Source: Thermosipho japonicus (GTDB lineage Bacteria > Thermotogota > Thermotogae > Thermotogales > Fervidobacteriaceae). Taken from it: a stretch of DNA of 64,000 bases. Location of the stretch: positions 124,001 to 188,000 of the forward strand of contig NZ_JACHEX010000003.1 of NCBI RefSeq assembly GCF_014201655.1, given 5' to 3'. Positions 17,305-61,316 of this stretch are shown here, in pieces. Numbering within the stretch: the first letter of the stretch is position 1; each line of letters starts with the position of its first letter. The position numbers and the translations under genes are program-made. The notes under the pieces are model-generated. The model searched no databases. It was not told the DNA's origin and was given only the letters and a program-made list of their open reading frames with translations.

Positions 17305-17996
17305 CTAAACTTACAAAACTAATAAAAAACTATAAATTAATATTTATAAGTATAGTTCTGTATTCAATTGCTTTTTTTACAAAACCAGAAATATTTTTTA
17401 GAGGATTAGAAATGACTAAAGGATTCTTAATTGAAATGCTCGAAGTTATGCCCCCCATACTAATAATATCATCATTAATTACAGTTTGGGTGCCTTCTGA
17501 AGTAATAATGAGAAACTTTGGTAAAGAATCTGGTATAAAAGGAAAACTTTTATCAATTTTTACAGGTGCAATTTCTGCAGGACCAATATATGCAGCATTC
17601 CCCGTAGCGCAAGCTTTGTTCTTGAAAGGAGCAAGTATTGGAAATTTAGTTATAATAATTAGCTCCTGGGCAGTAGTAAAAATCGTTATGTTTATGGTTG
17701 AATCCAGTTTCTTAGGATTATCATTTGCTACTACAAGGTATGTTTTGACAATTCCAGCAATTTTAATTATGGGATATATAATGGAAAAATTGGTAAGTAG
17801 AGAAGATATAATTGATGAAATAGAAGATAAAGATATAGTATATGAAAATGAAAAAGAGGTTTTAAGAGATTTACCAAATATGAATTGTGGAGCATGCGGG
17901 TATTCTAATTGTAAAGCATTTGCTGAAGGTGTTATAAAAGGTGAAGTTACAATAGATGATTGTGTAATTAGAAGCAAAGCCAAAGAATATGCATAA
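17301..17996 (+). CDS. Half-permease with C-terminal [4Fe-4S] domain
   Basis: This 231-residue protein has an N-terminal permease half (residues 1-165, four to five hydrophobic segments) with 'GAISAGPIYAAFPVAQALFL' matching the motif in the preceding gene. After an acidic linker it ends in 'NMNCGACGYSNCKAFAEG' and a fourth cysteine, spaced C-x2-C-x4-C-x16-C, the PF04060 Fe-S module found in RnfB and CO-dehydrogenase corrinoid proteins. The cluster should lie at the membrane surface and may couple transport to redox state. The start is ATG at 17301, overlapping the previous stop; an in-frame ATG at 17247 lies deep in the upstream gene and is rejected. Confidence 0.78.
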   Translation: MTKLTKLIKNYKLIFISIVLYSIAFFTKPEIFFRGLEMTKGFLIEMLEVMPPILIISSLITVWVPSEVIMRNFGKESGIKGKLLSIFTGAISAGPIYAAFPVAQALFLKGASIGNLVIIISSWAVVKIVMFMVESSFLGLSFATTRYVLTIPAILIMGYIMEKLVSREDIIDEIEDKDIVYENEKEVLRDLPNMNCGACGYSNCKAFAEGVIKGEVTIDDCVIRSKAKEYA

Positions 17997-56429: not shown

Positions 56430-56999
56430 TTGAAAAATAAATTAACTCTTCAAAATCTCTTTAAAATATTTTCAAGTCAGACTAAACTTGAAATACTAAT
56501 GACCATTTTTGACAACAATCTAACTGCTTCTGAAATAGCAAATAGATTGAACAAAGATCTCTCAACCATTTATAGACACCTTGTTCAATTAAAAAATATA
56601 GGAATTTTAAAATCAAAGAGAGTTAAGGGCATTGAGTACTTTGATTTTTCTTCAACCAAAGTATTTCAATTAATTGAAAATGCTATCGAGTTTTTAAACG
56701 AAATTAATGGTGAGCATGTTATTGATTGTTCCAACTTAAAAGAATGCTTTTTTGCAGAAAGCCCTAATAATCTAAATCCAGATTATGTTCTAGATGTAAG
56801 AGGAGAAATATGTCCGGTTCCAGATGTTAAAACCAGAAAAATGCTTGAAACATTAGAAGAAGGAAAAATATTACTAGTAATTGTGGATTACCCATTATCT
56901 GCTGAAAGGATCCCTATTTCCGTCTCAAAGATGGGGGCAAAAGTGCTTGCAAAAATTTCAGAAAAAGCAGGTGAAGTAAAAATCTTCATACAAAAATAA
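56430..56999 (+). CDS. ArsR-type HTH fused to a TusA domain
   Basis: The 189-residue protein has an N-terminal winged helix of ArsR type (residues 10-75: 'SSQTKLEILMTIFDN', 'SEIANRLNKDLSTIYRHLVQ', 'GILKSKRVKGIEYFDF'). A linker holds two cysteines, C100 and C106, in 'IDCSNLKECF'. A complete TusA domain follows from about 120, with the sulfur-carrying cysteine C128 in 'DVRGEICPVPDV'. By hand alignment 30 of 52 positions match the stand-alone TusA at 60850. TusA domains carry a persulfide on this cysteine, so the protein may sense sulfane sulfur and change DNA binding. The start is TTG with AGGAGGG upstream. The sulfur cluster lies just to the right, on the opposite strand. Confidence 0.88.
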   Translation: MKNKLTLQNLFKIFSSQTKLEILMTIFDNNLTASEIANRLNKDLSTIYRHLVQLKNIGILKSKRVKGIEYFDFSSTKVFQLIENAIEFLNEINGEHVIDCSNLKECFFAESPNNLNPDYVLDVRGEICPVPDVKTRKMLETLEEGKILLVIVDYPLSAERIPISVSKMGAKVLAKISEKAGEVKIFIQK

Positions 57000-57036
57000 A
57001 GGCGCCCTTCTGTAAAAAAAGAGCGCCTTTATTTTA
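56998..57036. terminator. Bidirectional terminator between the ArsR-TusA and gcvH genes
   Basis: AAAGGCGC (56998-57005) pairs with GCGCCTTT (57023-57030), followed by ATTTTA on the plus strand; on the minus strand the stem is followed by TTATTTTTG. It separates two convergent units. Confidence 0.82.
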
Positions 57037-57043
57037 ATTAATT

Positions 57044-57400
57044 CTACAATTTTTTATACTCTTCTTCTGTCATTAAATCTTCTAACTCACTTTCATCACT
57101 AATCTCTATTTTTGCAATCCAGCCTTCTTCTTCCGCAGAATCGCTTATTAATTCCGGATTTGTATCAAGCTTTTCATTAACTTCAATAATCTTTCCACTA
57201 ACAGGTGCATATACGCTACTTGCAGCTTTTACAGACTCGATTGTACATAATTGTTCGCCTTTTTTTACAACTTTACCTACTTCAGGAAGTTCAACGTAAG
57301 TTACATCACCTAAATCTTCTGCTGCTCTCTTTGAAATACCAATTATTCCAATCCCATCATTTACCTTTATCCACTCATGAGTTTTTGAATATTTTTTCAT
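57044..57400 (-). CDS. gcvH: Lipoyl carrier protein, GcvH-like
   Basis: The 118-residue protein is a lipoyl-domain protein like the H protein of glycine cleavage. 'YSKTHEWIKVNDGIGIIGIS' opens the family, and 'TIESVKAASSVYAPVSGKII' contains lysine K58, the attachment site for lipoate. It is slightly shorter than usual H proteins (125-130). It follows the dihydrolipoamide dehydrogenase gene by 35 bases and ends at a terminator. GcvT and GcvP are not in the window, and the upstream genes are sulfur carriers, so it may work as a lipoate-based sulfur carrier (as LbpA does in sHdr systems) rather than, or in addition to, glycine cleavage. This is an inference from context. Confidence 0.9.
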   Translation of the reverse strand: MKKYSKTHEWIKVNDGIGIIGISKRAAEDLGDVTYVELPEVGKVVKKGEQLCTIESVKAASSVYAPVSGKIIEVNEKLDTNPELISDSAEEEGWIAKIEISDESELEDLMTEEEYKKL

Positions 57401-57435
57401 ATTCTATCCTCCCTCAACTCTTAATTTCGACAACC

Positions 57436-58779
57436 TCATATATGAATAGCCCAATTACCTTCAAAAGCGCCAAGGAGTGTTTCGGTTAGTGTTGGATGTG
57501 GATGTATTGCCTCTGCTATTTTTTCTGTAACCATTTCATATTTTACTCCCAATACTCCCTCCATTATCATATCTGTTGCGTTTGCTGAGACTATCGTTAC
57601 TCCCAAGACCTTCCCTGTTTCTTTTTCTTCTATTACTTTTGCAAATCCTAATCTTTCTTCCATTGTTCTTGCCCTTCCATTTGCTGATACCGGAAATTTA
57701 TATATGTTTACTTTTTCTCTATCCACTTCTTTTTCTCTTTTTCCTACACTTGCTACTTCTGGATTTGAAAAGATTATCGATGGTACTGCTCTATAGTCCA
57801 TTTCCATTTCTTCTCCTGCTATATTGTGCGCTGCTACTATCCCTTCATACATTGCAACATGTGCTAGCATTATCTGCCCTCTTATATCTCCTATTGCATA
57901 TATGTTATCTATATTTGTTCTCATACGTTTGTCTGTTTTTACTCCTCTTTCTATTTCTATGCCAAGTCCTTTTATATCTTCACTTATATTCGGTCTTCTT
58001 CCTACTGCAAGTAATACTTTTTCAACTTCTATTTCTTTTCCTGCAACCTTTGCAATGTATTTTTCGCCTTTCTTTTCCACTCCTTCTACCTTTTCTCCTT
58101 CTATTATTTTTACTTTGTTCTTCTTTAATGCCTTTTTTACTTCTTCTGCTACATCACTATCTTCGTTTGGTAAGATATGCTCTGCAAGTTCTACTATCGT
58201 TACATCTACTCCAAAGCTTGAAAAGAATGTCGCAAACTCTACTCCTATTACCCCTCCGCCTATTATCAATATCGACTCTGGCATCTTTTCCATCTTAAAT
58301 ACATCATCACTCGTCCATATACCTTCTATCTGATCAAATGGTGGAAATACAACTGGTACAGAACCATGTGCTAAAATTATGTTTTCTCCTTCTATTTCTT
58401 GTCCACTCTTTTCAAGTAAAATAGTATTTTTGTCTTTCAATATTGCTTTGTCTTTAAATACTTCAATCTTATTCTTTTTCATCAAAAACTCTATACCTTT
58501 TCTAGACATAGTAACAGACTTTTGCATGTGTTTCATGATTAGTGATAGATCATATGAAACATTATCAACTAAGATACCAAATTTTTTAGCCTTTTCATTT
58601 ATCTCAGTAAAAAGGTGTGAGGCTGTAAGCATAGCTTTAGTAGGAATACAACCTTTATTGGTACAAGTGCCACCAAATTCTTCTTTTTCAACAATTGCAA
58701 CTTTCTTACCAAGCTGTGAAAGCCTTATCGCTGCAACATATCCTCCAGGCCCTCCACCTATTACTATCGCTTCATACAT
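57436..58779 (-). CDS. lpdA: Dihydrolipoamide dehydrogenase
   Basis: The 447-residue flavoenzyme reoxidises dihydrolipoyl groups with NAD+. 'AIVIGGGPGGYVAAIRLSQL' binds FAD, 'GGTCTNKGCIPTKAM' has the redox cysteines C39 and C44, 'ILIIGGGVIGVEFATFFSSF' binds NAD, and 'HPHPTLTETLLG' is the C-terminal catalytic histidine-glutamate pair. It is somewhat shorter than the usual 460-475. It lies between the DsrH-like gene and gcvH. The ribosome-binding site is GGAGGT. The hairpin at 58799-58828 lies between it and the upstream sulfur genes, so it may have its own regulation. Confidence 0.95.
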   Translation of the reverse strand: MYEAIVIGGGPGGYVAAIRLSQLGKKVAIVEKEEFGGTCTNKGCIPTKAMLTASHLFTEINEKAKKFGILVDNVSYDLSLIMKHMQKSVTMSRKGIEFLMKKNKIEVFKDKAILKDKNTILLEKSGQEIEGENIILAHGSVPVVFPPFDQIEGIWTSDDVFKMEKMPESILIIGGGVIGVEFATFFSSFGVDVTIVELAEHILPNEDSDVAEEVKKALKKNKVKIIEGEKVEGVEKKGEKYIAKVAGKEIEVEKVLLAVGRRPNISEDIKGLGIEIERGVKTDKRMRTNIDNIYAIGDIRGQIMLAHVAMYEGIVAAHNIAGEEMEMDYRAVPSIIFSNPEVASVGKREKEVDREKVNIYKFPVSANGRARTMEERLGFAKVIEEKETGKVLGVTIVSANATDMIMEGVLGVKYEMVTEKIAEAIHPHPTLTETLLGAFEGNWAIHI

Positions 58780-58798: not shown

Positions 58799-58828
58799 AA
58801 AAGACTAACGGGGAAAGTTCCCCGCTAG
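58799..58828 (-). terminator. Attenuator-like hairpin between dsrH-like and lpd genes
   Basis: CTAACGGGGAA (58805-58815) pairs with TTCCCCGCTAG (58818-58828) with one A-C or G-U position depending on strand, followed on the minus strand by TCTTTTTAGG. It overlaps the end of the DsrH-like gene. It should reduce, but need not abolish, transcription into lpd-gcvH. Confidence 0.7.
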
Positions 58829-59094
58829 CCTATAAATTTTTCTTCTTTTTCTATTAGTTCTACAAAGCTATCATAGTCTATCAAACTATATTTTGCTTCA
58901 TCTTCTTTGTATCCTCTTGCAAAAAAATCTTCTTTTAATATATAAACGTTTGCCTTTGTCAATGATGATAAATCTTGTAAATTCCAATATACTCCATCCT
59001 GAATTAATACTATTGAATCACCTTCTTTTGCGCTTTCAATCTTTAGTTTTTCAACAGGATGGTTTATACCATATTTAACTAAAACTAAAGCCAT
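58825..59094 (-). CDS. tusB: DsrH/TusB-like subunit lacking cysteine
   Basis: The 89-residue protein is a DsrH/TusB-family subunit of the DsrEFH (TusBCD) sulfur relay complex. 'GDSIVLIQDGVYWNL' is the family's central strand motif and the end is 'YSLIDYDSFVELIEKEE'. The cysteine known from DsrH of sulfur oxidisers is absent; no cysteine occurs in the whole protein. ATG at 59094 follows GAGAGGTGA; the in-frame GTG at 59103 is within that site. It is the last of three Dsr-like genes in the order E-F-H. Confidence 0.82.
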   Translation of the reverse strand: MALVLVKYGINHPVEKLKIESAKEGDSIVLIQDGVYWNLQDLSSLTKANVYILKEDFFARGYKEDEAKYSLIDYDSFVELIEKEEKFIG

Positions 59095-59106
59095 TAAAAT
59101 CACCTC

Positions 59107-59463
59107 TCACATAAAAATAACCAAATCATATTGATGGAAGAAATCAGATAATTCATCTTTATTAATAAATTGCGCACCATACTCTTCGTCTACATTTTTA
59201 ACATTGTACTTTTCTAAATCCTCTTTAACGGCATATACTGGGGTTTCGTACCTCTTTATAAATCTTTGAACTATCTTTATCGGAAGAAGTCCCAAAGATT
59301 CTGGTTTCGTATCCTTTGATAATGCAACTGTAGCAGCATCAATTAGCATTACAGCAGGTTCAATATCTTCACCGTACATTCCAAATGCTGTTCTAAATCC
59401 TTCATTTACCCATATTGAACCAACTGGAGATTGATATACAACAAATAAAACCTTTTTTTCCAT
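59107..59463 (-). CDS. tusC: DsrF/TusC-like subunit
   Basis: The 118-residue protein is a DsrE/F-like subunit. 'VLFVVYQSPVGSIWVNEGFR', 'TAFGMYGEDIEPAVMLIDAA' and 'LPIKIVQRFIKRYETPVYAV' match TusC/DsrF. No cysteine is present, consistent with DsrF being a structural partner. ATG has GAGGTG upstream. It lies 11 bases after the DsrE-like gene and 12 before the DsrH-like gene, as expected for subunits made together. Confidence 0.85.
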   Translation of the reverse strand: MEKKVLFVVYQSPVGSIWVNEGFRTAFGMYGEDIEPAVMLIDAATVALSKDTKPESLGLLPIKIVQRFIKRYETPVYAVKEDLEKYNVKNVDEEYGAQFINKDELSDFFHQYDLVIFM

Positions 59464-59474
59464 TATTTTTCACC

Positions 59475-59828
59475 TCACGCCATAAGACTTATAAATCTAT
59501 CGCTTGTGTAAATGAGTTCTGCAAGTTCTGGAAGTCCGCTTGGATTAGAACCTTCTATTATCATATCCGTCGTAATTCCCCTATAGTCCATACAAATTCC
59601 ACAAATTTCTACTTTTGCACCTTTATCTATAAGTCCTTTTAAAAGTTGTGAAATATTTCTATCTCCTCTTACGGGTTTCATATGTTTATTAGATGCTATT
59701 GCAGAATCACAGAATAAGAAGATTGTAACTTCATGGCCTTTTTTCAAAGCTGCTTCTGCAATTTTTACAGCAGTATCTAAATCTTGATATGTATATGGTT
59801 GAACCATAACCTGAATTGTTATTTTCAT
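59475..59828 (-). CDS. tusD: DsrE/TusD-like sulfur-carrier subunit
   Basis: The 117-residue protein is the likely sulfur-bearing subunit of the DsrEFH complex. 'QPYTYQDLDTAVKIAEAALK' and 'GHEVTIFLFCDSAIAS' match the family, and 'GAKVEICGICMDYRGI' has C76 and C79, C76 or C79 corresponding to the catalytic DsrE/TusD cysteine that receives sulfur from TusA. A further cysteine, C40, is present. ATG has GAGGAGG upstream. The gene follows the YeeE-like transporter. Confidence 0.88.
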   Translation of the reverse strand: MKITIQVMVQPYTYQDLDTAVKIAEAALKKGHEVTIFLFCDSAIASNKHMKPVRGDRNISQLLKGLIDKGAKVEICGICMDYRGITTDMIIEGSNPSGLPELAELIYTSDRFISLMA

Positions 59829-59840
59829 ATTATCTCCTCC

Positions 59841-60833
59841 TCAGTCCCTTCCAAACAAAATCCATGCCATTGTCCAATTTCCAAGGATAAAGAATAGTGA
59901 AGCTAGTAAAGAACCAATTGCCATTTGTGGAACACCGGTGAAGAAATGTCCGATATTACAACCACCTGCTGTAACAGCACCTAATCCCATTAAAACTCCA
60001 CCGACCATTACTTGAAGATAAGTAATTGGATTCTTAGGCATTCTTAGTTTGAACTCTCCTGCAAGCTTTGCAGAAATCATTGCACCAATTATAATTCCTA
60101 CGATTTCCCAACCTTCCCAACTCAATGGTTGTTTGTTTAAAAATCCTTTAAACAAGCTAATCCAACCACCTGTAATACCAAATCCGTAGTTTCTTCCAGA
60201 AGCTGCACTAGACATCCAAGCAAGGGGTGCTAATATTGCAAGGATTATTGCAGCCGTTTTGTAACCAAGTTTTGTACTTCTTTCCGTTGTTTTTGTTCCA
60301 AAAACGTACCACAAAAGAATTGCCACAAATATAATTCCTACAATCCATGGGTTCACATGAAAAACAGAAGATAGAGTTGGACCAGATTTAGCTGCATACA
60401 ATCCTTCTGTGTGTTCAACCTTCACAGTGAATTTTGAAACCCATTTTAACCATCCAGAAAATACTCCTGCCTTTGTTGCATATGCTGTTAAGCCATAGAA
60501 AATCGCAGCAAACCACGCAGTTGTCATACCTTCACCTGATCTATATGTAACACCAGACGCACAACCTCCGGCAAGCACCATTCCCATTCCAAACAAATAT
60601 CCACCAATTATATTCCCAACCCAGTTTAAAGGTTTAGGATTTAATGTAATCCAACCCATTTGTGCAAAAAATAGGAATGTGAGAACTTGAAGTGCTATTA
60701 CTAAAGCTGCAAATTTCATAAGGTAATTATCTTTAAAAAGTCTTACATCTCTAAACGCTGAATTAAAACATATACGACCTCTTTGAAGAATAATACCAAA
60801 TATAAGCCCAAATACTATTCCTAAATATGCCAT
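59841..60833 (-). CDS. tsuA: YeeE/YedE-type thiosulfate (sulfur compound) transporter
   Basis: The 330-residue membrane protein belongs to the YeeE/YedE family. Three conserved cysteines lie in 'GRICFNSAFRD' (C22), 'AGGCASGVTYRSGEG' (C91) and 'AGGCNIGHFFTG' (C292), at nearly the same positions as the three thiosulfate-relay cysteines of the structurally studied Spirochaeta thermophila YeeE (TsuA). It therefore probably imports thiosulfate or another sulfane compound. ATG at 60833 is preferred over GTG at 60842, which lies in the ribosome-binding site GGGGGTG. The adjoining TusA may receive the imported sulfur, like TsuB. Confidence 0.92.
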   Translation of the reverse strand: MAYLGIVFGLIFGIILQRGRICFNSAFRDVRLFKDNYLMKFAALVIALQVLTFLFFAQMGWITLNPKPLNWVGNIIGGYLFGMGMVLAGGCASGVTYRSGEGMTTAWFAAIFYGLTAYATKAGVFSGWLKWVSKFTVKVEHTEGLYAAKSGPTLSSVFHVNPWIVGIIFVAILLWYVFGTKTTERSTKLGYKTAAIILAILAPLAWMSSAASGRNYGFGITGGWISLFKGFLNKQPLSWEGWEIVGIIIGAMISAKLAGEFKLRMPKNPITYLQVMVGGVLMGLGAVTAGGCNIGHFFTGVPQMAIGSLLASLFFILGNWTMAWILFGRD

Positions 60834-60849
60834 TTTATGCACCCCCAGC

Positions 60850-61092
60850 TTAGCCGTTTACTTTAATATAAATCTTCCATTCACTTCCTCCAACTTCTTC
60901 TATCTCTAATACCTCATGCCCTAATTTCTTTACTGTTTCTGGAATTCTTTCTTTTGACATAGGATAATCAATTAAAACTTCCAAAATTTCACCTGGTTTC
61001 ATCTTTTTTAATGCTCTCTTTGTTTCAACGTCAGGAACTGGACATACCTCTCCTCTTACATCAATAGTTTTTGTAACTTCATACTTTGCCAT
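60850..61092 (-). CDS. tusA: Sulfur carrier protein TusA
   Basis: The 80-residue TusA protein carries a persulfide on C17 in 'DVRGEVCPVPDVETKRAL'; 'PMSKERIPETVKKLG' is the second conserved block. TusA passes sulfur to DsrE/TusD-type proteins. ATG at 61092 has GGAGGTGGGTAGT upstream; the in-frame codons further upstream are not supported. It is the first gene of the sulfur cluster, and its upstream region (61093-61316) holds a TATAAT and a spaced inverted repeat. Confidence 0.93.
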   Translation of the reverse strand: MAKYEVTKTIDVRGEVCPVPDVETKRALKKMKPGEILEVLIDYPMSKERIPETVKKLGHEVLEIEEVGGSEWKIYIKVNG

Positions 61093-61316
61093 ACTACCCA
61101 CCTCCATTTTAAAGATATTTTTCACAAATTTCCCTGCTTAATATTGAGATTTTTTTCACATTTCACTTAAATTATAACTTATCATTTTAACCAATCAGTT
61201 TCTATAAAATTACAGTTTGGTTAACAATACAAGCAAATATAAAAAAACAAAAAACCTTTAAACCATACGTTTCTTCAAGTTATCAAAAAAATGTTTGTAA
61301 CATATTGTTAACTAAA
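61093..61316 (-). promoter_or_regulatory. Promoter region of the tusA operon with spaced inverted repeat
   Basis: On the minus strand TATAAT (61171-61176 in plus coordinates) is the likely -10, with no good -35, giving a leader of about 70 bases. An 8-base inverted repeat, TTAACCAA (61187-61194) and TTGGTTAA (61217-61224), lies just upstream with 30 bases between arm starts, about three helical turns. It may bind a dimeric regulator, for example the nearby ArsR-TusA protein. The region between 61230 and 61316 is AT-rich and shows nothing else. Confidence 0.5.

Follow-up and report, generated by a model that had tools for sequence, protein, structure and literature searches.

What does a bacterial DNA-binding protein read when it carries a sulfur-carrier domain in its own chain and lies next to the genes of a sulfur relay? 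The question is raised by a regulator gene, here called REG, of the heat-loving bacterium Thermosipho japonicus, found in a 64,000-nucleotide stretch of its genome (contig NZ_JACHEX010000003.1, positions 124,001 to 188,000; hereafter the window). The explanation that we favor, and consider reasonably likely on comparative grounds, is that REG encodes a dedicated one-component regulator of the adjoining thiosulfate-uptake and sulfur-relay operon, with a short promoter site, M1, as operator and sulfur loading of a single cysteine, C128, as input.

An ArsR–TusA Fusion beside a Sulfur Cluster

REG occupies positions 56430–56999 of the window on the plus strand. Its open reading frame of 189 amino acids is uninterrupted, starts at a TTG preceded by AGGAGG, and ends with a TAA stop codon. 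An ArsR-type winged helix–turn–helix (wHTH; residues 17–61) and a TusA domain (residues 120–189) share this chain, as the earlier note had proposed: the Pfam models HTH_5 (PF01022) and TusA (PF01206) score 36.4 and 64.5 bits against curated cut-offs of 22 and 28.6, respectively. The only cysteines are C100 and C106 in the linker and C128 in the CPxP motif of the TusA domain. The genome encodes just two TusA domains, those of REG and of the operon TusA, which are identical at 30 of the 53 positions in the core, within one position of the 30 of 52 counted previously, and at 34 of 68 when the full domain is compared.

The AlphaFold2 model of REG, computed with 33 aligned homologues as input (mean pLDDT 88, pTM 0.79), comprises the wHTH, a long helix at residues 76–93, a linker of lower confidence (pLDDT near 69 for residues 101–110), and a TusA fold. 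Foldseek matched the ArsR half to HlyU, SmtB, and CzrA, and HlyU is the nearest solved relative of the N-terminal half (E = 1.5e-7). The NCBIfam model for BigR (NF040642) gives 20.5 bits, below its cut-off of 155. The recognition helix is retained in the homologue alignment, with S45 and L51 invariant and T46 and R49 conserved in at least 90% of sequences. An Rfam scan of the window returned no match.

The neighboring genes all lie on the minus strand. The operon TusA, a TsuB-type sulfur carrier (60850–61092), starts at the ATG of MAKYEV at 61092 within a frame that is open to 61125. It is followed by the YeeE-type thiosulfate transporter TsuA (59841–60842; NF052577, 581.6 bits, cut-off 400) and by DsrE/TusD-like (59475–59828; profile match), DsrF/TusC-like (59107–59463; assigned by a weak match below cut-off and by gene order), and DsrH/TusB-like (58825–59103; TIGR03011 above cut-off) subunits. 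Dihydrolipoyl dehydrogenase, Lpd (57436–58779; TIGR01350 above cut-off), and a GcvH-like lipoyl carrier with an ESVKA lipoylation motif (57044–57400; GCV_H, E = 1e-42) complete the series. REG is convergent with gcvH and adjoins the cluster, as had been noted. Between the two genes, a G+C-rich inverted repeat read from the sequence, AAAGGCGC...GCGCCTTTA (57000–57034), is a probable bidirectional terminator; a consensus scan for terminators did not detect it.

The lipoyl carrier and Lpd (57044–58779) belong to the sulfur cluster; a second GcvH (C4) and the glycine-cleavage P proteins (C5) are encoded elsewhere in the genome. Relay sulfur might be reduced to sulfide along a route from NADH through Lpd and the lipoyl group.

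Distribution and Gene Order of REG

Two-domain homologues with 36–97% identity to REG occur across Thermotogota, which bears out the domain architecture and shows that the fusion is not a chance event. In a phylum-wide search, REG was present in 36 of 103 genomes (two of them, G088 and G091, with partial copies). The carriers known by name belong to Thermosipho, Marinitoga, Kosmotogaceae, Mesotoga, and Pseudothermotoga; the closest named relative, own records excluded, is 83% identical and comes from a Thermosipho metagenome-assembled genome. TsuA was found in 41 of the 103 genomes, namely in 33 of the 36 with REG versus 8 of the 67 others (Fisher p = 5e-16, kinship ignored). REG is present and TsuA was not detected in genomes G095 and G098.

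Many genera share the order tusA-tsuA-dsrE-dsrF-dsrH-REG-(lpd-gcvH), and REG most often follows dsrH within the operon. Thermosipho and Marinitoga types, and likewise the window, have REG relocated to the distal end, where it and lpd-gcvH converge. By these sequence comparisons, REG has long belonged to the thiosulfate cluster of Thermotogota, tsuB/tusA-tsuA-dsrE-dsrF-dsrH-(lpd-gcvH), and is conserved in it.

Several loci depart from this pattern. A diverged ArsR–TusA gene lacking M1 lies upstream of tusA in G023, G042, and G043 (L052 5590–6129, L080 992–1483, and L079 1–306). It is perhaps an independent second fusion event; a TusA tree of 71 columns, in which this gene forms a long branch and two E. 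coli sequences serve as outgroup only, is compatible either way. In the two Marinitoga-type genomes G095 and G098, a short open reading frame that weakly resembles REG (31 bits) lies directly upstream of REG (L073 7766–8041 and L075 3455–3709). In the Marinitoga lauensis-type assembly G096, lpd is split into several frames (L074 6259–7639), by decay or sequencing error.

No ArsR–TusA fusion was found outside Thermotogota in a contig scan with two conserved TusA motifs, DYP[LI]S[AKG]ERI and RG[EQ]xCP[VI]P[DE], a scan that reaches only TusA domains with one of these motifs and could miss fusions that involve TusA of another kind. Among the lineages with unfused TusA of the REG type are Coprothermobacter, Dictyoglomus, Thermoanaerobacter, and Asgard archaea, and in 16 such non-Thermotogota genomes the two domains match as separate proteins only. 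Apart from a separate HTH gene at three Lokiarchaeal loci, the stretches examined outside Thermotogota held no REG-type ArsR gene near TsuB, and viral contigs yielded no REG relatives.

A Predicted Operator in the tusA Promoter

The earlier note had named the region 61093–61316 for a binding test with REG, and a likely operator does fall inside it. This site, M1 (TTAACCAAACTGTAAT; 61209–61224, minus strand), is a 16-bp imperfect inverted repeat of the TTAC-N6-GTAA type. Its consensus, KTWACCAWRYNGNAAY, was derived as an iterated weight matrix from the regions before tusA in 29 clusters with REG. M1 was recovered in 27 of these 29 promoters when one family at a time was left out (each p ≤ 0.02), versus none of the 7 clusters that have no REG or a diverged one (p = 4e-6, kinship ignored).

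We also searched the genomes of the phylum for the consensus pattern, a pattern search rather than a weight-matrix scan. The pattern matched once per genome, at the tusA promoter, in 15 genomes (G000, which is the genome of the window, G001, G022, G025, G027, G029, G031, G032, G033, G034, G036, G038, G085, G090, and G091); since it was derived from these same sites, its presence there is not independent evidence, whereas its uniqueness is. Two rearranged genomes provide natural tests of the link between M1 and REG. In G099, REG (contig 5) and tsuA (contig 9) are separate, and M1 is upstream of both; in G095, tusA-tsuA is missing, and M1 precedes dsrE.

Genomic linkage, together with a predicted operator confined to REG genomes and loci, indicates that REG is a dedicated regulator of the tsu/dsrEFH cluster, a sequence-based assignment with two exceptions: G049 and G100 have REG, and M1 there is weak or absent. 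Two further points weigh against the assignment. M1 could be read by another factor that travels with the cluster, and no M1 was found in the promoter of the window's own REG gene; in most relatives, REG is simply part of the operon.

Weaker or additional M1-like sequences were also seen, one at 17870–17885 of the window on the plus strand (TTTACCAAATATGAAT, 15.0 bits) and a second site (TTTACCAACTGGTAAG) in the Thermotoga-type genomes G031 and G033, roughly 1.8 kb past REG (L047 4945–4960).

Promoter Geometry and the Direction of Control

A −10 element, TATAAT (61171–61176, minus strand), lies 32 bp after M1. Across the clusters, TATnAT peaks sharply at this offset from M1 (12 of 28 exact, against 3 at the next best offset), while the −35 hexamers match TTGACA at 2.48 of 6 positions, no better than shuffled sequence (2.60). 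With TATnAT fixed at offset 32, the core of M1 is centered near −52, and its weaker flanking TTG and CAA reach about −68 and −35. The placement of M1 32 bp before the −10 element and the lack of a −35 box suit an activator-type promoter, which is not proof of one.

Downstream of the −10 element, overlapping the region in which the sulfur operon starts, lies M2 (ATGTGAAAAAAATCTCAA; 61144–61161, minus strand), a Rex-type operator-like site of the form TTGTGAAAAAAATCTCAA. It resembles the operator of T. maritima Rex (TM0201), TTGTGATAAATTTCTCAA (PMC8836258). M2 scores 15 to 25 bits in 6 of the 7 clusters without M1; M1 thus follows REG and M2 does not, and this control ties M1 to REG. M2 is conserved throughout the phylum, including most clusters without REG. 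Its presence suggests NADH/NAD+ control of thiosulfate use.

These features bear on the possibility that REG is instead a repressor, which would block RNA polymerase from M1 until sulfur loading releases it, as in SoxR/sHdrR. ArsR-family precedent is on the side of this mechanism (PMC12423496), and the conserved outer TTG and CAA would stretch the footprint to about −35. The core near −52, the fixed 32-bp spacing, and the missing −35 box suit an activator, and the repressor position is already taken by M2. We regard repression by REG as possible but unlikely. ArsR proteins are mostly repressors, which counts against the activator assignment that we prefer, and the argument for a positive direction thus comes from promoter geometry only.

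The TusA Half Is of the TsuB Type

By both sequence and fold, the TusA half of REG is closest to TsuB-type proteins, namely T. maritima TM0983 and S. thermophila TsuB of the TsuA–TsuB complex; TsuB in that complex is the best fold match (44% identity, 0.9 Å). In S. thermophila TsuB, C17, the counterpart of C128, reacts with thiosulfate and takes up thiosulfate-derived sulfur, and E15, V16, C17, D42, Y43, E48, and R49 are required for TsuA binding (PMC11073785). The KD of TsuB for TsuA is about 1.6 µM. The REG equivalents of E15, C17, D42, Y43, E48, and R49 are E126, C128, D153, Y154, E159, and R160. Among 33 aligned REG homologues, the residues corresponding to C17, D42, E48, and R49 are present in all, Y43 in 32, and E15 in 26, with Q in the other 7. 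In the TusA tree, the REG domains form a branch separate from operon TsuB, and their rate of evolution is higher.

The retention of this interface could mean that control is coupled to the transporter itself: empty REG would dock through its TsuB face on idle membrane TsuA and be freed when thiosulfate arrives, so that REG would sense whether the transporter is occupied, instead of or in addition to stable loading of C128. Conservation of the interface set is indeed 0.88 versus 0.64 for the rest of the domain (permutation p = 0.003), the single Y43-to-C change occurs in G098, where no TsuA was found, and the window TsuA retains C22, R28, R98, and E101 (numbered as in S. thermophila) on the face that binds TsuB. 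A precedent exists in Hyphomicrobium, where the YeeE-like protein SoxT1B signals to the ArsR repressor SoxR (PMC11582611). However, the same residues are common to TsuB-type proteins generally and may be needed for DsrEFH docking or for the TusA fold, and REG is kept in G095 and G098, the two genomes mentioned above, without detectable TsuA, so docking on TsuA is neither obligatory nor the sole input. We judge transporter occupancy improbable as the signal. The faster evolution of the REG domain relative to operon TusA could point to a partner-docking instead of a sulfur-carrying role, and it tells to that extent against C128 loading as the input.

C128, Not the Linker Cysteines, Is Conserved

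The earlier note had likened C100 and C106 to the dithiol pairs of SqrR and BigR and had made the case depend on conserved cysteines. The outcome differs between the two parts of the protein. C128, the sulfur cysteine, is present in 35 of 35 homologues and in all 33 that were aligned. Two linker cysteines occur in 15 of the 33, one in 2, and none in 16. The α2 cysteine of HlyU aligns with M24 of REG and its α5 cysteine with about N90, the latter placed by hand extension beyond the printed HlyU alignment; no homologue (0 of 33) has a cysteine in either column. With C100 and C106 patchy and the SqrR/HlyU positions devoid of cysteine, the dithiol comparison fails as a family mechanism. A linker dithiol as the general sensor is ruled out, as C100 and C106 are missing in half of the homologues.

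A narrower version, in which C100 and C106 form a persulfide-sensing dithiol in REG and the TusA domain merely aids sulfur delivery, could draw on the presence of both cysteines in the window protein and in homologues of the Thermosipho, Marinitoga, and Kosmotogaceae types, where an extra lineage-specific switch is conceivable. It is very unlikely as the explanation for REG, given that the homologues with no linker cysteine include M1-bearing Thermotoga and Pseudothermotoga types and that C100 and C106 do not fall on the sensing positions. At most, the pair may be a lineage-specific addition. It is hardly credible that REG is a conventional ArsR metal sensor, or that it carries sulfur and makes no use of its HTH: metal sensors exist in the family and the TusA half is intact, but the 33 homologues share no cysteine ligand set other than C128, no metal genes were seen in the REG clusters, the recognition helix is conserved, and M1 travels with REG.

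A Model for Sulfur-Responsive Control

Since REG goes with the thiosulfate-uptake pathway and with a specific promoter site, it probably reads sulfur flow directly. We infer that the ArsR-type domain would bind M1, just upstream of the operon core promoter, and that C128 in the TsuB-type domain would be loaded with sulfur, which could come from thiosulfate, as in TsuB, or be handed over by TsuB or DsrEFH. Whether C128 is loaded or empty would alter the DNA binding or activity of REG, and the operon would most likely be switched on while sulfane sulfur flows, the positive direction again being our inference. Transporter docking may add to the C128 input, and Rex, acting at M2, would make control depend on NADH as well. 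This model of a dedicated regulator draws on the architecture, the conservation of C128 alone among the cysteines, the link to the cluster, and the predicted operator with its geometry.

A more elaborate form is tentative, and we would not expect it to be correct in full. REG would be a one-component activator whose sensor is the very subunit that accepts sulfur from the transporter. The same cysteine would serve both in docking on the thiosulfate transporter and in receiving its cargo, thereby coupling transport flux to transcription. Together with Rex, it would form a gate for sulfur present and NADH high on an electron-sink pathway.

Comparison with Known Sulfur Sensors

We found no description of an ArsR–TusA fusion in a literature search made largely without subscription papers, and for T. 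maritima TM0978–TM0983 the literature yielded a gene list only. The components are already known; what appears to be new is TusA as an in-chain sensor of an ArsR regulator. REG shares its ArsR wHTH with SqrR, BigR, HlyU, and SoxR/sHdrR. Those proteins have two sensing cysteines within the wHTH (in α2 and α5 in SqrR, BigR, and HlyU), whereas REG has no cysteine at either wHTH position and carries its predicted sulfur-reactive cysteine in the added TusA domain. CstR/CsoR-type persulfide sensors regulate genes that include TusA-type domains, such as CstA; they have another DNA-binding fold, and it is their target gene, rather than the regulator itself, that encodes the TusA domain. With TsuB (YeeD) of the S. 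thermophila type (8j4c, 8k1r), REG has in common the fold, the CPxP cysteine, the DYPxSxERI motif, and the TsuA-contact residues, but it is fused to a DNA-binding domain, forms a separate branch, and evolves faster. Rex is related to this system through the likeness of the TM0201 operator to M2 in the sulfur-operon promoter; it would be a separate NADH-sensing layer, and M2 occurs in clusters without REG, too.

SoxR and sHdrR control thiosulfate genes, SoxR in dependence on a YeeE-like protein (PMC11582611, PMC12423496). Whether sulfur reaches these regulators through TusA or as the transported species has been stated as an open question (PMC11582611). A natural ArsR–TusA fusion with a predicted operator and one invariant cysteine makes the question of loading directly testable in a small thermophilic protein, and REG offers a candidate regulator, and a promoter logic, by which Thermotogota could control their use of thiosulfate.
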